From Lysobacter avium (GTDB taxonomy: Bacteria > Pseudomonadota > Gammaproteobacteria > Xanthomonadales > Xanthomonadaceae), in the NCBI RefSeq assembly GCF_015209745.1, contig NZ_CP063657.1, positions 1,488,001 through 1,552,000 on the forward strand: a stretch of 64,000 nucleotides of DNA, in the 5' to 3' direction. A model generated the notes under the pieces. The model made no database searches, was not told where the DNA came from, and saw only the letters and a list, made by a program, of their open reading frames with translations. The position numbers were made by a program, and so were the translations under genes. Of this stretch, positions 3,232 to 9,735 are shown one piece after another (the first letter of the stretch is position 1; each line of letters opens with the position of its first letter).

Positions 3232-4605
3232 TCAGTGGCCCGATGCGGGGTCGCTCTTCTCGCGGCTGTCAAAGATCGAGCTGTCCGCTTCACCCTTCAC
3301 ATTCAGGAAGCCGATCAGGCCCTTCTCGGCCCGCGACAGGGCGTGGTCGACGAGCAGGTAGCGGCCCGGATAGTCGACCTTGAACTCCACCATGGTCGCT
3401 CCGCCAGGCGGTACGATCGTGGTCTGGACATCGGTCAGCGGCGGGCTGGTGAAAGACGCCAGGTCGTAGACGCGGTCAAACACTTCACCGATCAGGTGGA
3501 AACTGGAGGTCAGGTTCGGACCGCCGACGCCGAAGAACATGCGCACGGTTTCGCCGACGTTCGCCTGCATGTCGAAGGTCTTGGTCAGCGCGTTCATGCT
3601 GCCGTTGAACATCAGGTGCTCTGGCCGCTCATCGAGCAGTTTCTCCACCGAGAACTCCTGCAGGCCGCTGGAGCCGTGCTTCTGCGCGGTGTAGAGCTCG
3701 CCCTGCATGACGTAGAACTCGCGGTCCACGCTCGGCAATCCGCCCTCGGGCTCGACCAAGATCATCCCGTACATGCCGTTGGAAATGTGCTGGGCGATCA
3801 TCGGCGTGGCGCAGTGGTAGACGAACAGTCCGGGATGCAGCGCCTTGAAGGTAAAGCTCTTGGTCTGCCCCGGCGCGACCTGGGTCACCACCGCGCCACC
3901 GCCCGGACCCGTGACGGCGTGGAAGTCGACCGAGTGGATGTTGATGCTGTCCTCGGCGTTCTTCAGGTTGATGGTGACGGTATCGCCCTTTCTGATCCGC
4001 AGCAGCGGGCCGGGCACCGTGCTGTCAAAGGTCCAGTAGCGGTAGGTGCTGCCGTCCGAAAGCTGGCCTTCGACCTCGGTGGTGAGCAGGTCGTAGGTGA
4101 TGTGCTTGGCCGCGCGGTCGCCGACCGGCTCGCCGACCTGGTACGGGTCCTTGGCCACGTCTACGGCGGTGCTCACGACGTCGGCGACATCGCCCACGGT
4201 CAGCTTGCCGAACATGCCCGCCGCCTTGTGACCGGGGATCGTGCATACATATTCGAACGCGCCCGCCTTGCCGGCGCGGAACACGATGGTGGTCGATGAG
4301 CCTTCACCAACCAGCTGGTCGGAATGGGCATCGAATGCCGGAACGGAGATGTCGTGCATCGCCCCGTCGCCATTGACCACGGTGATCGCGACCACCGCTC
4401 CTTCGGGCACTTTCAGTTCCGGATTCACCTGATCCTTGATCGCGCCAGCGTTGCCGACGAACACCAACTGTCCGTTGTCGATCGCGGTGCGCAACGTAAA
4501 AGTGACGTCCGCCACCGGGGTGACGTCGGCCGAACGTGCGGCGATGGCCTGCGGCACAAACCCGGCAGCTCCGGCCAGGGCGAACAGCAACACCAGCTCT
4601 TTCAT
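3232..4605 (-). CDS. nirK: Copper nitrite reductase with extra N-terminal cupredoxin domain
   Basis: This 457-residue secreted protein (signal peptide about 1-22) reduces nitrite to nitric oxide in the periplasm. Residues about 35-140 form an additional blue-copper domain with ligands H84, C121, H126 and M131. Residues about 165-440 are the two NirK cupredoxin domains: type 1 copper ligands H224, C265, H273 and M278; type 2 ligands H229, H264 and H421; active-site D227 and H370. All ligands for three copper sites are present. The fused N-terminal domain resembles the NirK described from Hyphomicrobium denitrificans, where it carries an extra type 1 copper. The start at 4605 has a GGAAG ribosome site. 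An FNR-type box lies 77 bases upstream and a terminator follows. No nor genes are in view. Confidence 0.95.
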   Translation of the reverse strand: MKELVLLFALAGAAGFVPQAIAARSADVTPVADVTFTLRTAIDNGQLVFVGNAGAIKDQVNPELKVPEGAVVAITVVNGDGAMHDISVPAFDAHSDQLVGEGSSTTIVFRAGKAGAFEYVCTIPGHKAAGMFGKLTVGDVADVVSTAVDVAKDPYQVGEPVGDRAAKHITYDLLTTEVEGQLSDGSTYRYWTFDSTVPGPLLRIRKGDTVTINLKNAEDSINIHSVDFHAVTGPGGGAVVTQVAPGQTKSFTFKALHPGLFVYHCATPMIAQHISNGMYGMILVEPEGGLPSVDREFYVMQGELYTAQKHGSSGLQEFSVEKLLDERPEHLMFNGSMNALTKTFDMQANVGETVRMFFGVGGPNLTSSFHLIGEVFDRVYDLASFTSPPLTDVQTTIVPPGGATMVEFKVDYPGRYLLVDHALSRAEKGLIGFLNVKGEADSSIFDSREKSDPASGH

Positions 4606-4647
4606 TCCAGTCTTCCTTCCAGTCAGCAAAATGCTTCGTTGGCCGGC

Positions 4648-4653
4648 ACGATA
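4648..4653 (-). promoter_or_regulatory. Candidate -10 element of nirK
   Basis: TATCGT (four of six to TATAAT) is centred 32 bases downstream of the FNR-type palindrome centre. This is the spacing of class II FNR promoters, where the activator sits near -41.5. Confidence 0.5.
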
Positions 4654-4675
4654 GACAGTGCGTGACCACCCCTCC

Positions 4676-4689
4676 ATGACGTGGGTCAA
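4676..4689 (-). promoter_or_regulatory. FNR/DNR-type box upstream of nirK
   Basis: Read toward nirK the site is TTGAC-CCAC-GTCAT, close to the Crp/Fnr-family consensus TTGAT-N4-ATCAA (DNR variants allow GTCAA). Its centre is 77.5 bases from the nirK ATG. A near-copy, TGAT-CCAC-GTCA, occurs at the same distance from the ATG at 8666. Confidence 0.7.
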
Positions 4690-4752
4690 GCCAGACCAAA
4701 CGCAACCGTATGTTGGTCTTCACTGCCGTAGGAAAACCGATGCGGCCAACGC

Positions 4753-4776
4753 AAAACCGCCCCGGATCCGGGGCGG
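4753..4776 (-). terminator. Rho-independent terminator after the His-rich lipoprotein gene
   Basis: A perfect 20-base palindrome, CCGCCCCGGATCCGGGGCGG, is followed on the minus strand by TTTT. It lies about 110 bases after the stop codon at 4885 and separates that gene from nirK. Confidence 0.65.
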
Positions 4777-4884
4777 CGGAAAGGAACACGGAGTGTTTTG
4801 CGTGGCCCGGATCAGTCCGCACCCGGGTACAGGCTGTGCGGCGTTCGATTCGTCGTCGCTGAAGCGCCTGATGGCTTCACAGGC

Positions 4885-5421
4885 TCAGTCGTGCGTCAAC
4901 GGCTCCAGGTCTTCGTGGTCAAAGGTGGCCTCGTAGTCGTTCACCACCGAGACCAGGCGGGGTACGCCTTCGGCCGATGCGGGGTCTTCGCGCAGTGCCG
5001 TCGCCGCGCCCATCATCTCCCCGATCATCACGTGCAGCACGGCGTCGGGCTCGGGTTCCAGTTGGCAGTTGGCGATCATGTAGTTCACGTTGTCCTGGAC
5101 GGAGGCGGCCAGCGCTTCGGCGTCCGCCGCTTGCAGGCGGGACTCGTGGTAGGCCGGCAGGTTCTTGGCCACGTCATCGCGGATCCCGCTCATGGCCTTG
5201 CGCAGTGGCGCATCGGTCTCCCAGCGCTGTCCTTCGGCAAGCACCGGCCGCGGGCCGTGCTCGTCATGGGCATCGTGCGCGTCAGCCGCGACCGGCGCCT
5301 CGCTTTGGGTGGTCGGGGGCGTGTCGGCTTGCGCCGGGGGCGCTGGATCGCTTCCGCACGCTGCAACGGCGAGGGCGAGAAGGGCTGAGGCGACGCCGGC
5401 ATATAGAGAGTTGCGTTTCAT
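4885..5421 (-). CDS. Small His-rich lipoprotein of the DnrO type, denitrification-associated
   Basis: The 178-residue protein has a lipoprotein signal peptide with the lipidated cysteine at C22. A low-complexity linker follows, containing the histidine cluster DAHDAHDEHG near residues 48-57, then a helical domain (about 70-175). From memory it resembles the small DnrO/DnrP-annotated lipoproteins of xanthomonads; no function is established that I know of. It sits immediately upstream of nirK on the same strand but has its own terminator. Its own FNR-type box is centred 61 bases before the start. Expression together with nirK, and a metal-binding role for the histidines, are inferences. Confidence 0.6.
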   Translation of the reverse strand: MKRNSLYAGVASALLALAVAACGSDPAPPAQADTPPTTQSEAPVAADAHDAHDEHGPRPVLAEGQRWETDAPLRKAMSGIRDDVAKNLPAYHESRLQAADAEALAASVQDNVNYMIANCQLEPEPDAVLHVMIGEMMGAATALREDPASAEGVPRLVSVVNDYEATFDHEDLEPLTHD

Positions 5422-5448
5422 GAACTGTCTCCTGTAAATGACCTCCCT

Positions 5449-5454
5449 ACCGTA
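5449..5454 (-). promoter_or_regulatory. Candidate -10 element of the His-rich lipoprotein gene
   Basis: TACGGT keeps the three most conserved -10 positions (T1, A2, T6). Its centre is 31 bases from the centre of the FNR-type box at 5476-5489, as expected for class II activation toward the minus-strand gene. Confidence 0.35.
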
Positions 5455-5475
5455 ACGTCTCCCGCGTGCACGGCC

Positions 5476-5489
5476 TTGATCCTTGTCAT
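5476..5489 (-). promoter_or_regulatory. FNR/DNR-type box between the His-rich lipoprotein and CoA-transferase genes
   Basis: The plus strand reads TTGAT-CCTT-GTCAT, with one mismatch from a perfect TTGAT-N4-RTCAA site. It lies 61.5 bases from the lipoprotein start at 5421 and 130 bases from the CoA-transferase start at 5613. The first is the likelier target. Confidence 0.6.
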
Positions 5490-5612
5490 GGCGTTTCGCG
5501 ATGTGTGGTCCCCGAACGCCATGTGTTCAGGGTGAGGCAGTGCGTTCCTGTTGGCTTCCAAGCCTTCGAGTAAAATCGAGGTGACCCCCGAAAGCTTTCC
5601 TCCGAGGCAACC

Positions 5613-7124
5613 GTGACCCAACGCATCCTCCACCCCGGCCTGGCCGACAAGATCATGAGTCCGGCGCAGGCGGCTGAACTGATCCAGCCCGGCATGACCG
5701 TCGCCATGAGCGGATTCACCGGCGCCGGCTACCCCAAGGCGGTTCCGCAGGCGTTGGCCGCCCGTATGGAGACCGCGGCGGCGGCAGGCCATCCCTTCAA
5801 AATCAAGGTCCTCACCGGTGCGTCGACGGCGCCCGAGCTGGACGGCGCGCTGGCGCGGGTGGAAGGCATGGAGTTGCGCCTGCCCTACCAGTCCGACCCG
5901 GCGGTGCGTGAGCGCATCAACGCCGGCAATCTGGAGTACATCGACATCCACCTGAGCCACGTCGCCCAGCACACCTGGTTCGGGTTCTTCGGCAAGATCG
6001 ATGTGGCGGTGGTGGAGGTCTCCGGCATCCGCGAGGACGGCAGCCTGATTCCGTCGTCGTCGGTGGGCAACAACATGACCTGGCTCGAACGGGCAGACAA
6101 GGTCATCCTGGAGGTCAACCGCTGGCAGCCCGAGGCGCTGGCGGGCATGCACGACATCTATTACGGCACTGCCCTGCCCCCGGACCGCAAGCCGATCCCG
6201 CTGCTGCATCCCGATGACCGCATCGGCCAGCCCTGGTTCCGCCTGGACCAGGACAAGGTCATCGCCGTGGTTGAGACCAACGACCCGGACCGCAACTCGC
6301 CATTCAACCCACCCGATGAAGCGTCGCAGCGGATCGCCGGCCACCTGCTGGATTTCCTCGGCCGCGAGGTCAAGCGCGGCCGGCTGACCGACAAGCTGCT
6401 GCCGCTGCAGTCGGGCGTTGGCAACATCGCCAACGCGGTGCTGGCGGGACTGGCGACCGGCGGTTACAACGGACTATCGGCCTACACCGAGGTCATCCAG
6501 GACGGCATGCTGCAGCTGATCAAGGAGGGCGTTCTGCGGATGGCATCGGCCACCTCGTTCTCGCTCAGCCCGGCCGGGATCGAGGAGTTCAACGCCAATG
6601 TCGATTTCTATTCCAGGCGCATCCTGCTGCGTCCGCAGGAGATCTCCAACCACCCGGAGATCATCCGGCGGCTCGGCTGCATCGCCATGAACGGCATGAT
6701 CGAGGCGGACATCTACGGCAACGTCAACTCGACCCACATCGCCGGCAGCCAGATCATGAACGGCATCGGTGGCTCGGGCGACTTCGCGCGCAACAGCTAC
6801 CTGTCGGTTTTCATGGCACCCAGCACGGCCAAGGGCGGCAAGATCTCCGGGATCGTGCCGATGGTCAGCCACGTGGACCACACCGAGCACGACACGATGG
6901 TCGTGGTCACCGACCAGGGCCTCGCGGACCTGCGCGGCCTGGCGCCCAAGCAGCGCGCGCGGGTCATCATCGAGAACTGCGTCCACCCGGACTTCAAGCC
7001 GATGCTGCAGGACTACTTCGACCGCGCCTGCCGCGACAGCTACGCCAAGCACACCCCGCATCTGCTGCCCGAGGCCTTGTCGTGGCACCAGCGCTTTATT
7101 GATACGGGCAGCATGCTGCCCTGA
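5613..7124 (+). CDS. Acetyl-CoA hydrolase/transferase, succinate:acetate CoA-transferase type
   Basis: The 503-residue protein is full length for the AarC/Cat1-type succinyl-CoA:acetate CoA-transferases. These move CoA between succinyl-CoA and acetate and can bypass succinyl-CoA synthetase in the TCA cycle. The expected catalytic glutamate is E293 in YTEVIQDG, and the glycine-rich GVGNIANAVL segment lies just before it. The start is a GTG at 5613 with GAGG six bases upstream. It is divergent from the His-rich lipoprotein gene and convergent with sstT. Succinate:acetate specificity is inferred from overall resemblance; related family members use propionyl-CoA or 4-hydroxybutyrate. Confidence 0.85.
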   Translation: MTQRILHPGLADKIMSPAQAAELIQPGMTVAMSGFTGAGYPKAVPQALAARMETAAAAGHPFKIKVLTGASTAPELDGALARVEGMELRLPYQSDPAVRERINAGNLEYIDIHLSHVAQHTWFGFFGKIDVAVVEVSGIREDGSLIPSSSVGNNMTWLERADKVILEVNRWQPEALAGMHDIYYGTALPPDRKPIPLLHPDDRIGQPWFRLDQDKVIAVVETNDPDRNSPFNPPDEASQRIAGHLLDFLGREVKRGRLTDKLLPLQSGVGNIANAVLAGLATGGYNGLSAYTEVIQDGMLQLIKEGVLRMASATSFSLSPAGIEEFNANVDFYSRRILLRPQEISNHPEIIRRLGCIAMNGMIEADIYGNVNSTHIAGSQIMNGIGGSGDFARNSYLSVFMAPSTAKGGKISGIVPMVSHVDHTEHDTMVVVTDQGLADLRGLAPKQRARVIIENCVHPDFKPMLQDYFDRACRDSYAKHTPHLLPEALSWHQRFIDTGSMLP

Positions 7125-7147
7125 CGGCTGATGCAATTTGACTCGTG

Positions 7148-8422
7148 TCAGCGGCCTGCGCGGGCCTCCGCCCGCTTGCAGGCGGCCGCGGTAAACAGGA
7201 CATCGGTGGAGGAGTTCAGCGCGGTCTCGGCCGAGTCCTGCACCACGCCGACAATGAATCCGATCGCGACGACGCGCATGGCGAGGTCGTCGGATATGCC
7301 GAACAGTCCGGCGGCAAGCGGGATCAGGAGCAGCGAGCCGCCCGGTACACCTGAGGCTCCGCACGCCGCGACCGCGGCGACCACGCTGAGCAGCAGCGCG
7401 GTCGGCATGTCCACCGGGATTCCCAGGGTGTGCACCGCTGCCAGCGTCAGCACGGTGATGGTGATCGCCGCGCCGGCCATGTTGATGGTCGCCCCGATCG
7501 GGATCGAGACCGCATAGGTTTCGCGATGCAGGCCCATCTTCCGGCACAGCTCCATGTTGATCGGAATGTTTGCCGCCGAGCTGCGGGTGAAGAACGCGGT
7601 AATTCCGCTCTCGCGCAGGCAGCGCAGGACCAGAGGATAAGGATTGCTGCGGATGACCAGGGCCACGATCAGTGGGTTGGCTACCAGGGAAACAAACAGC
7701 ATGCATCCCAGCAGCACGGCCAACAGCTGCGCGTAATCAAGCAATGTCGACAGTCCCGTGGCGGCAATCGTCTCGGCGACCAGGCCGAAGATCCCTATTG
7801 GCGCCAGCTGGATGACGGCGCGGACCAGCCGCGTCACTGCATCCGACAGGTCCGCAAGAGCCGTGCGGGTGCTGTCGGCAGAGTAGCGCAGCGCGACGCC
7901 AAGGCCGACGGCCCAGGCCAGGATGCCGATGTAATTGCCCGCCTGCAGCGCGTGGATCGGATTGTCTACGAGCTGCAGCAGGAGGTTGCGCAACACCTCG
8001 CCGATACCGCCCGGAGGGCTCAAATCGCCTGCACCGGCGACGCCCAGGTGCAGCGTTACAGGGAACATGAAGCTGGCTGCCACCGCGACCAACGCGGCAG
8101 CGAGCGTGCCGACCAGGTACAGCACCAGGATGGGACGGATATGGGTCTTCTGGCCCTGGCGGTGGTTGGCGATGGACGCGGCCACCAGCACCAGCACCAG
8201 AATCGGCGCGACCGCTTTGAGTGCCGAGACGAACACGGTGCCCAGCAGGCCGACCGCCATCGCCGCCGAGGGCGCAAGCAGCGCAAGCAGCGTGCCGGCG
8301 ATCAGTCCGATCACGATCCGCAGCACCAGACTGGTTTGGGTCCACCGAGCCAGCAGGCCTTGAGACGCCTTTCCGGGGAGCGACGGTGGCAGACGGTTGT
8401 CGGGAGGGCTGGGTTCGGTCAT
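7148..8422 (-). CDS. sstT: Serine/threonine:Na+ symporter SstT
   Basis: This 424-residue inner-membrane protein belongs to the dicarboxylate/amino acid:cation symporter family (Pfam SDF). Its length, the [15 protein letters not shown] hairpin region and the [16 protein letters not shown] segment match SstT, which imports serine and threonine with sodium. The ATG at 8422 was chosen because the upstream extension to 8485 lacks family character. It is tail-to-tail with the CoA-transferase gene (23 bases). Its promoter region is shared with the divergent lipoate ligase genes. Confidence 0.9.
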
Positions 8423-8580
8423 GGCGTGAGGTCCGGGGGCGGAAGGCGTTCGTACCGGCAACAACAAGCGCCGCGCACGAAGCATCGATTGTCGCCGACC
8501 GCGCCGATGATTTGGCCGTTTGCGGGTAAATCGTGATCACCGTTACACGCAGCACGCGCCCGCACCCCACTCGCAGATCG

Positions 8581-8596
8581 AATGATCCACGTCATT
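8581..8596 (+). promoter_or_regulatory. FNR/DNR-type palindrome upstream of the split lipoate ligase
   Basis: AATGA-TCCACG-TCATT is a palindrome with the core TGAT-CCAC-GTCA, differing by one base from the nirK core TGAC-CCAC-GTCA. Its centre is 77.5 bases before the ATG at 8666, exactly the nirK distance. A weak -10 (GAGGAT, 8618-8623) has class II spacing. It is 166 bases from the sstT start, so the ligase is the likelier target. Confidence 0.6.
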
Positions 8597-8665
8597 GCTC
8601 CCGACGCCCGCGCAGACGAGGATGGTTGCCTCAGCCACGCTTGCGGCGGTTAAAGCGAGGAGTCC

Positions 8666-8962
8666 ATGTCCAAACACGGCGAGTACAAGGAGCCCGGCGG
8701 GAAGCTGGTGGTGGTCGACCTGGCGGTTTCGGACGGATTGCTGACGGAAGTTCGCGTGAGCGGCGACTTCTTCCTGGAGCCCGATTCTGCGCTGGACGTG
8801 ATCAACACCGCCCTGTCCGGCACCCGCGCCGACGCCGGCGTTGATGCCTGGACAACGACCGTCCATACCGCTTTGGGCGATGGCACCTCGCTGTACGGCA
8901 TCAGCCCGAAGGGCGTCGCCATCGCAGTGGATCGCGCGCTCAACGGGGAGCGCACGCCATGA
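8666..8962 (+). CDS. Lipoate-protein ligase accessory subunit (LplB-like, separate C-terminal domain)
   Basis: The 98-residue protein matches the small C-terminal accessory domain of lipoate-protein ligase, here encoded as its own gene. Known two-part ligases (Thermoplasma LplA/LplB, and sLpl(AB) of sulfur oxidizers) need this subunit to form lipoyl-AMP. Visible features are the conserved pattern KLVVVDLAVSDGLLTEVRVSGDFF near the N-terminus followed by a helical region. A GAGGAG ribosome site precedes the ATG. The stop overlaps the start of the next gene by four bases (ATGA), so the two are translationally coupled. An FNR-type palindrome lies upstream. Assignment rests on pattern and context. 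Confidence 0.7.
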   Translation: MSKHGEYKEPGGKLVVVDLAVSDGLLTEVRVSGDFFLEPDSALDVINTALSGTRADAGVDAWTTTVHTALGDGTSLYGISPKGVAIAVDRALNGERTP

Positions 8963-9735
8963 GCCGGACCGAATGGCACGAGCACGACTGGCAACTGATC
9001 CACACCGAAGCACAGTCGCCGGCGATGCACATGGCGCTGGACGAAGTGTTGACCAATGAGGTGTCCGCCGGTCGGCGCCGCCCCACCTTGCGGGTGTGGG
9101 AATGGGCCGATCCCGCGGTCGTCATCGGCCGCTTCCAGTCCCTGCGCAATGAGGTCGACAGCGCCGCGGCTACTGGTCACGGCATCCAGGTGGTGCGGCG
9201 TATCAGCGGCGGCGGCGCGATGTTCATCGAGCCGGGCAACACCATCACCTACTCCATCTGCGGCCCGCTCTCGCTGGTCGAGGGCTTGTCGTTCCAGCAG
9301 TCCTATGAGTTGATGGACCGCTGGGTGATCGAGGCGCTGGGCGAACTAGGCGTAGCGGCGAGCTACCAGCCCCTCAACGACATCACCTCCCCGGCCGGCA
9401 AGATCGCGGGGGCCGCGCAGGCGCGCAAGGGCAACGCCGTGCTCCACCACGTGACCATGGCCTACGACATCGACACCAACAAAATGCTGGAGGTGTTGCG
9501 GATCGGGCGCGAGAAGCTCTCCGACAAGGGCACCGCGAGCGCAGCCAAGAGGGTCGACCCCCTGCGCAGCCAGACCGGATTGCCGCGCGGGGACGTCATC
9601 GAGCGCATGATCTCCACCTTCCGCCGCAACCACGGCCTGCGTGACGACCACCTCACCCCGGATGAACTGGGCCAGGCGATGCAACTGGCAAACGACAAGT
9701 TCCAAACCCCGGAGTGGACCGCGGTGGTTCCCTGA
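8959..9735 (+). CDS. Lipoate-protein ligase catalytic subunit (LplA-like, lacking the C-terminal domain)
   Basis: The 258-residue protein has the biotin/lipoate ligase (BPL_LplA_LipB) fold. RRISGGG at 80-86 and GKIAGAAQ at 147-154 are the nucleotide/lipoate binding motifs, and K148 corresponds to the adenylate-contacting lysine of LplA. The family activates lipoate with ATP and attaches it to lysines of E2 or GcvH proteins. The usual valine-histidine stretch after the RRxSGGG motif is replaced by AMFIEPGN, so specificity could be unusual. No lipoyl-domain protein or LipS1/LipS2 gene is adjacent. A true ligase versus an octanoyltransferase-like role cannot be settled from sequence alone. Confidence 0.8.
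   Translation: MSRTEWHEHDWQLIHTEAQSPAMHMALDEVLTNEVSAGRRRPTLRVWEWADPAVVIGRFQSLRNEVDSAAATGHGIQVVRRISGGGAMFIEPGNTITYSICGPLSLVEGLSFQQSYELMDRWVIEALGELGVAASYQPLNDITSPAGKIAGAAQARKGNAVLHHVTMAYDIDTNKMLEVLRIGREKLSDKGTASAAKRVDPLRSQTGLPRGDVIERMISTFRRNHGLRDDHLTPDELGQAMQLANDKFQTPEWTAVVP

Follow-up and report, generated by a model that had tools for sequence, protein, structure and literature searches.

In gammaproteobacteria, FNR/ANR regulons combine a dyad with a 4-base spacer, a -10 element at class II distance, regulators with four cysteines, and targets comprising hemN, the ccb3 oxidase and denitrification genes. According to the excerpted text of Rodionov et al. (2005, PMC1274295), the DNR regulon of Pseudomonas and betaproteobacteria likewise relies on an FNR-like box, CTTGATnnnnATCAAG, upstream of nirK, norB and nosZ, and the NnrR regulon of alphaproteobacteria has nirK, nor and nnrS among its targets, with ctTTGcgnnnncgCAAag as its motif. 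We analysed a stretch of 64,000 nucleotides from Lysobacter avium (RefSeq assembly GCF_015209745.1, contig NZ_CP063657.1, positions 1,488,001 to 1,552,000; hereafter the window), in which candidate boxes of the FNR type precede the copper nitrite reductase gene nirK, a gene for a His-rich lipoprotein and the split lipoate-protein ligase operon lplB-lplA. All the above traits of the FNR/ANR regulons recur here. What differs is the presence, among the predicted targets, of the ligase operon and of a DnrO-like lipoprotein, the existence of two FNR paralogues, and the location of several gene starts directly at the predicted transcription start. Unlike the DNR regulon, this one comes with no DNR-type protein among those returned by the regulator searches described below, and nosZ is without a box; as for NnrR, it shares the targets nirK, nor and nnrS, but its motif is a different sequence from the boxes found here. 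With high probability, all three boxes mark class II FNR promoters and belong to a genome-wide low-oxygen/denitrification regulon. Taken one by one, nirK is almost certainly under FNR control, the lipoprotein gene with very high probability, and lplBA probably. The boxes, their -10 candidates and the genes that follow are listed below (window coordinates).

4677..4688, minus strand: FNR-type box of nirK, TGACCCACGTCA, centre 77.5 bases from the ATG at 4605
4648..4653, minus strand: -10-like TATCGT of nirK, centre 32.0 bases from the box centre
3232..4605, minus strand: nirK, copper nitrite reductase with an N-terminal cupredoxin domain (TIGR02376, 339 bits against a cut-off of 296; cupredoxin domains at about 63-137)
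5477..5488, minus strand: FNR-type box of the His-rich lipoprotein gene, centre 61.5 bases from the ATG at 5421
5449..5454, minus strand: -10-like TACGGT of the lipoprotein gene, centre 31.0 bases from the box centre
4885..5421, minus strand: His-rich lipoprotein gene, whose relatives are named 'DnrO protein' by NCBI/UniRef
8583..8594, plus strand: FNR-type box of the split lipoate ligase operon, TGATCCACGTCA, centre 77.5 bases from the ATG at 8666
8618..8623, plus strand: -10-like GAGGAT of the ligase operon, centre 32.0 bases from the box centre
8666..8962, plus strand: lplB, small subunit of lipoate-protein ligase (NF053749, 92.4 bits against a cut-off of 65)
8959..9735, plus strand: lplA, large subunit, overlapping lplB by 4 bases

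A prior reading of the window, made from the sequence only, had reported the three cores and their distances, which proved exact, as did its -10 candidates for nirK and the lipoprotein gene. It had overlooked the GAGGAT of the ligase operon: with it, all three boxes (3/3) have a -10 element 31-32 bases from their centre. The inner dyad TGAY-N4-RTCA is present at each box; the outer T/A of a TTGAY-N4-RTCAA-type dyad is found on one side only at nirK and the lipoprotein gene, and on neither side at lplB. In the class II arrangement, FNR is centred at -41.5. The scheme that we infer from these sequences, for binding and activation as well as for the oxygen signal and the FNR paralogue acting at each site, would be as follows. 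When oxygen falls, an FNR-type regulator would assemble its [4Fe-4S] cluster, dimerise and bind the TGAY-N4-RTCA dyad centred near -41.5, adjoining RNA polymerase at the -10 element 31-32 bases downstream; it would thereby turn on nirK, the periplasmic His-rich four-helix lipoprotein and the lplB-lplA operon, the ligase serving probably for lipoate salvage in microaerobic or denitrifying growth.

The search for the same boxes covered 60 relatives and provided 12 full-length nirK loci, the window's own included, from 10 genus members and two other genera. A strict box was conserved at 12/12 nirK loci, at 4/4 close lipoprotein loci and at 7 of the 10 lplB loci of the genus. In all 12 nirK loci and all seven strict-box lplB loci the NANNNT hexamer was centred 32.0 bases from the box centre; the four lipoprotein loci had it at 31 or 32. 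Its positions 2 and 6 (A and T) were invariant in the nirK (12/12) and lplB (7/7) sets, while the flanks averaged 0.60 and 0.61 identity. Other spacer lengths were nearly absent: TGAY-Nk-RTCA, with k from 1 to 10 and no more than 150 bases upstream, gave a single match in 26 loci (k = 9, at one nirK locus). Beyond the window, the norZ box was kept in 11/11 aligned loci of relatives (12 examined). The distance between box and ATG, on the other hand, ranged between 76.5 and 84.5 at the 12 nirK loci and between 58.5 and 113.5 at the seven strict-box lplB loci. Since it drifts so freely, the 77.5 bases shared by nirK and the ligase operon, to which the sequence-only reading had drawn attention, are a coincidence and carry no weight.

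The -10 spacing was also counted within the genome itself. An earlier count gave 12 of 15, but its promoters had been hand-picked, and two boxes had been read in one direction only: the readings omitted were that toward ferredoxin (GACAAT at 33) and one of the two from the 1797059 box (no -10). We therefore rely on a second count, in which nothing was hand-picked and which took in 834,519 distinct bases of the genome. Here 18 of the 37 intergenic box-gene pairs had NANNNT at 31 or 32 (15/32 once the window is set aside); for boxes inside genes the figure was 9 in 190 strand tests.

The alternative that survives best, though we hold it to be unlikely, is that the core matches arose by chance, at least at lplB, and that the promoters are unrelated. 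The window contains 11 copies of the core TGAYNNNNRTCA, where 100 shuffles averaged 2.37, and six of these 11 are inside coding sequence. In an evenly spaced 400 kb sample of the genome (9.4% non-coding), there were 47 cores: 39 in genes, 6 at most 200 bases upstream and 2 elsewhere, i.e. 10.8, 25.8 and 13.9 per 100 kb, respectively. All 72 distinct genome places of the narrower TGAYCCNNRTCA were sorted with a home-made gene caller, which put 53 inside genes and 19 in intergenic regions (about 7 intergenic expected from the non-coding share). The motif is thus denser upstream of genes than within them, as the sequence-only reading presupposed, but by number most of its copies (39/47 and 53/72) are inside genes. 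Core counting was rejected as proof because the core is so common there: taken alone, the core motif is weak evidence. A scoring matrix trained on 12 other sites of the same genome gave 14.1 for the nirK box, 12.3 for the lipoprotein box and 8.2 for the ligase box. In the 400 kb sample, 20 positions scored at least 13, 31 at least 12 and 196 at least 8, the last being the level reached by lplB. Within the window the nirK box ranked second, the lipoprotein box eighth and the ligase box outside the top 14; as proof, the matrix scan is weak for lplB. Because the core is frequent and mostly in genes, and the matrix scan weak for lplB, the earlier claim that three such sites close together are unlikely by chance was under-argued from the cores. 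Conservation in relatives together with the fixed box-to-minus-10 spacing makes it safe.

Several other observations weigh against FNR control, mostly at lplB. A strict lplB box is absent from 3/10 genus members (G004, G005 and G009), and in G005 the lplB upstream region does not have even a one-mismatch dyad. The two lplB loci outside the genus have no credible box (none in G055; in G052 a core at 101.5, with no -10). The window's own lplB box, with its score of 8.2, lacks the outer T/A of TTGAT-ATCAA. The closest relatives conserve the entire lplB upstream region and are therefore not independent tests of the box. More generally, 17 of the 32 intergenic pairs outside the window are without the -10 element; in some of these the box is paired with the wrong one of two divergent genes. 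A strict box is missing both at nosZ and at the gene start ahead of it, and no narG was found in the genome. Against chance, however, stand the lplB boxes of G003, G006 and G007, where the 4-base gap and the -10 position are the same in spite of altered flanks and ATG distance. Moreover, two of the three genomes without a strict box hold one-mismatch dyads, read by eye, accompanied by CATCAT at 32 in G004 and by TAGCAT at 33 in G009.

It could also be proposed that the boxes act on the divergent genes rather than on the lipoprotein gene and the ligase operon, which we judge quite improbable. Both neighbours are probably not targets:

5613..7124, plus strand: scpC, succinate CoA-transferase (TIGR03458, NF053853)
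7148..8422, minus strand: sstT, serine/threonine transporter (NF010151)

Their starts do share an intergenic region with a box, whose centre is 130.5 bases from scpC (lipoprotein box) or 166.5 from sstT (ligase box), and in G001 a lipoprotein-type box persists where the gene caller shows no lipoprotein, the gene being present by search. But no NANNNT occurs at 31 or 32 toward scpC or sstT, so both were rejected as targets, and in G006 lplBA keeps its box, at 58.5, with sstT elsewhere. A fourth core, TGACTCGTGTCA, was noticed at 7139-7150, between the convergent ends of scpC and sstT. No gene start follows it; the identical core is present in G002 and a variant of it in G001. A phage similarity search gave one partial match (74.9%), which was uninformative.

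As to the regulator, searches with the cyclic nucleoside monophosphate (cNMP) domain and with the Crp helix each returned the same three proteins: one CRP-family protein (NF008732, 312 bits) and two of the FNR type. The sequence-only reading would have failed had the genome encoded no FNR/DNR-type protein, which is not the case. One of the two FNR-type proteins has its gene next to hemN and norZ; the gene of the other closes the ccb3 oxidase cluster. When aligned with an FNR-type regulator of known structure, both match it across the C-x2-C-x5-C motif, the fourth cysteine and the E..SR recognition helix. The NCBIfam Fnr model, which has a cut-off of 228 bits, gives them 203.5 and 227.1, so that both fall slightly short. 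Of the 60 genomes, 51 had a match to the hemN-linked FNR with an E-value of 1e-10 or lower, a count in which paralogues are included; G002 gave a partial match only. A DNR/NnrR-type sensor of nitric oxide (NO) acting at the boxes would suit targets such as nirK and the NO reductase, and DNR does use an FNR-like box in the excerpts of Rodionov et al. (2005, PMC1274295). We nevertheless regard such a sensor as very improbable: none of the three cNMP-domain proteins is a Crp/Fnr protein without the cysteine cluster, two having C-x2-C-x5-C plus the fourth cysteine and the third being CRP, and the one Rrf2 protein that turned up is the SUF regulator rather than NsrR (NorR was not searched for). These proteins are why, of the regulator and signal first suggested, oxygen sensing through FNR is supported and DNR with NO sensing is not. 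NO can also act on FNR clusters, and a secondary effect of NO is thus possible. Binding by CRP/Clp has next to no probability: a CRP-family protein is encoded, but the half-sites are TTGA/ATGA instead of GTGA with a 6-base spacer, and none of the three boxes fits the CRP/Clp consensus TGTGA-N6-TCACA.

With FNR-type control as the preferred reading, the boxes were placed among the others of the genome. The intergenic TGAYCCNNRTCA sites include hemN, norZ, nnrS, a second nirK (with two boxes, and a TGACTGCGGTCA besides that is closest to fabA), ccoN, azurin and a DUF2946 gene besides the three window sites, and a wider box pattern adds a universal stress protein and a DUF2249 gene. Among the other denitrification and microaerobic genes for which the question had been raised, nor and the ccb3 oxidase carry the box, as does hemN, but nosZ does not. 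The sequence-only reading thus holds as regards Crp/Fnr-family sites with a class II layout at nirK, the lipoprotein gene and the split ligase; its DNR/NO component does not, and its 'small regulon' is too narrow, given these other boxed genes. The three window promoters are predicted outliers of a larger FNR regulon whose core is near 2.41-2.43 Mb. The weight formerly given to three boxes within 4 kb has to be dropped as well: nirK and lplB are within about 3-4.5 kb of each other in only 5/10 genus members (G000, G001, G002, G007 and G008), and they are on different contigs in G003, G004, G005 and G009 and more than 1 Mb apart in G006. A three-gene cluster as a unit of its own was rejected on this ground. 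Since the boxes persist in G003 and G006 with the genes apart, co-location is not part of the mechanism.

A number of side observations concern this wider set. The second nirK (G000 2418539-2420062; L116 2539-4062), located beside a SUMF1-like gene and the ccb3 cluster, has a C-terminal cytochrome c domain, so that the genome encodes two structurally different NirK proteins. The start of hemN, exactly 42.5 bases from the centre of its FNR box, coincides with the predicted transcription start (L115 9956-10004; L296-L306), and the hemN mRNA may for this reason be leaderless; among 11 assessable loci the distance was 42.5 in eight and 41.5 in one, and became 42.5 in the other two with an ATG 3 or 6 bases upstream (by eye). 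The same 42.5 spacing is found at nnrS (own genome, L289 and L294) and at the DUF2946 gene (L263). A box lies 64.5 bases before fabA, with CAGAAT as -10 (L116 2257-2268), a ketoacyl synthase gene following fabA. Boxes recur near the fabA start in relatives (L289, L290, L292 and L294), which suggests FNR control of oxygen-independent unsaturated fatty acid synthesis. In relatives, a box is also present between a DnrO-like paralogue and a U32-family gene (Pfam U32) that resembles ubiU, a name given by eye (L292 7048-7059; L293 6373-6384); it hints at FNR control of oxygen-independent ubiquinone synthesis. Finally, the small DUF2946-type gene (L263 3000-3521, by Pfam; L275 4230-4679, by eye) has an FNR box in the genome of the window, and in G006 it is divergent from nirK and behind its own box, suggesting that it may give copper-related help to NirK.

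The predicted mechanism is ordinary, and the new detail is in two of the putative FNR targets, the DnrO-like lipoprotein and lplBA. The lipoprotein matched no Pfam or NCBIfam family in profile searches. Its N-terminus is His-rich and disordered; residues 71-166 form a predicted four-helix domain (predicted local distance difference test score, pLDDT, mostly >90). A fold search with the model had no hit at E 0.001 or better; four-helix bundles, cytochrome b562 for instance, resemble it weakly. Together with C119, H130 and H169, invariant in an alignment of 25 sequences, the modelled domain suggests a role in periplasmic metal or haem handling. A DnrO-like paralogue in relatives (L291, L292 and L293) also starts at a box, and our literature search found no report associating DnrO with denitrification.

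The predicted FNR control of the lipoate ligase is the one unexpected item. The enzyme corresponds to the split LplA/LplB type (NCBIfam LplB and LplAB): lplB is over its cut-off and lplA aligns to the rest of LplAB, but here lplA, at 418.9 bits, is under the LplAB cut-off of 550 and the operon carries an FNR box. Why the two would be coupled can be imagined as follows. NirK makes NO and needs copper; both could put the radical-SAM lipoyl synthase at risk, and LplAB, which is ATP-dependent, would re-attach free lipoate. In the portions of PMC9576991 available, NO inactivated the radical-SAM enzymes HemN and viperin in vitro, lipoyl synthase not being shown as hit, and excess copper impaired radical-SAM pathways in Escherichia coli; an extract of PMC4398509 describes cAMP-dependent control of lipoic acid synthesis in Shewanella. 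The presence of the lplBA box and -10 in 7/10 genus members, also far from nirK, is in favour of the idea, as is the fact that the de novo lipA-lipB cluster has no box. That the genus has lipoate salvage under FNR control wired into its denitrification programme is nonetheless a speculative and rather doubtful proposal. We found no relevant report on FNR and lipoate ligase in the open-licence literature, and none on an FNR regulon in Lysobacteraceae among the matches listed.

To conclude, requiring a -10 at a fixed distance from the box tells true FNR sites apart from the numerous look-alikes of a GC-rich genome, and its use here yields an FNR regulon open to testing in a group of partial denitrifiers that has been little studied. 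If the lipoate ligase is truly one of its targets, this would link nitrite respiration to cofactor repair of the 2-oxoacid dehydrogenases.

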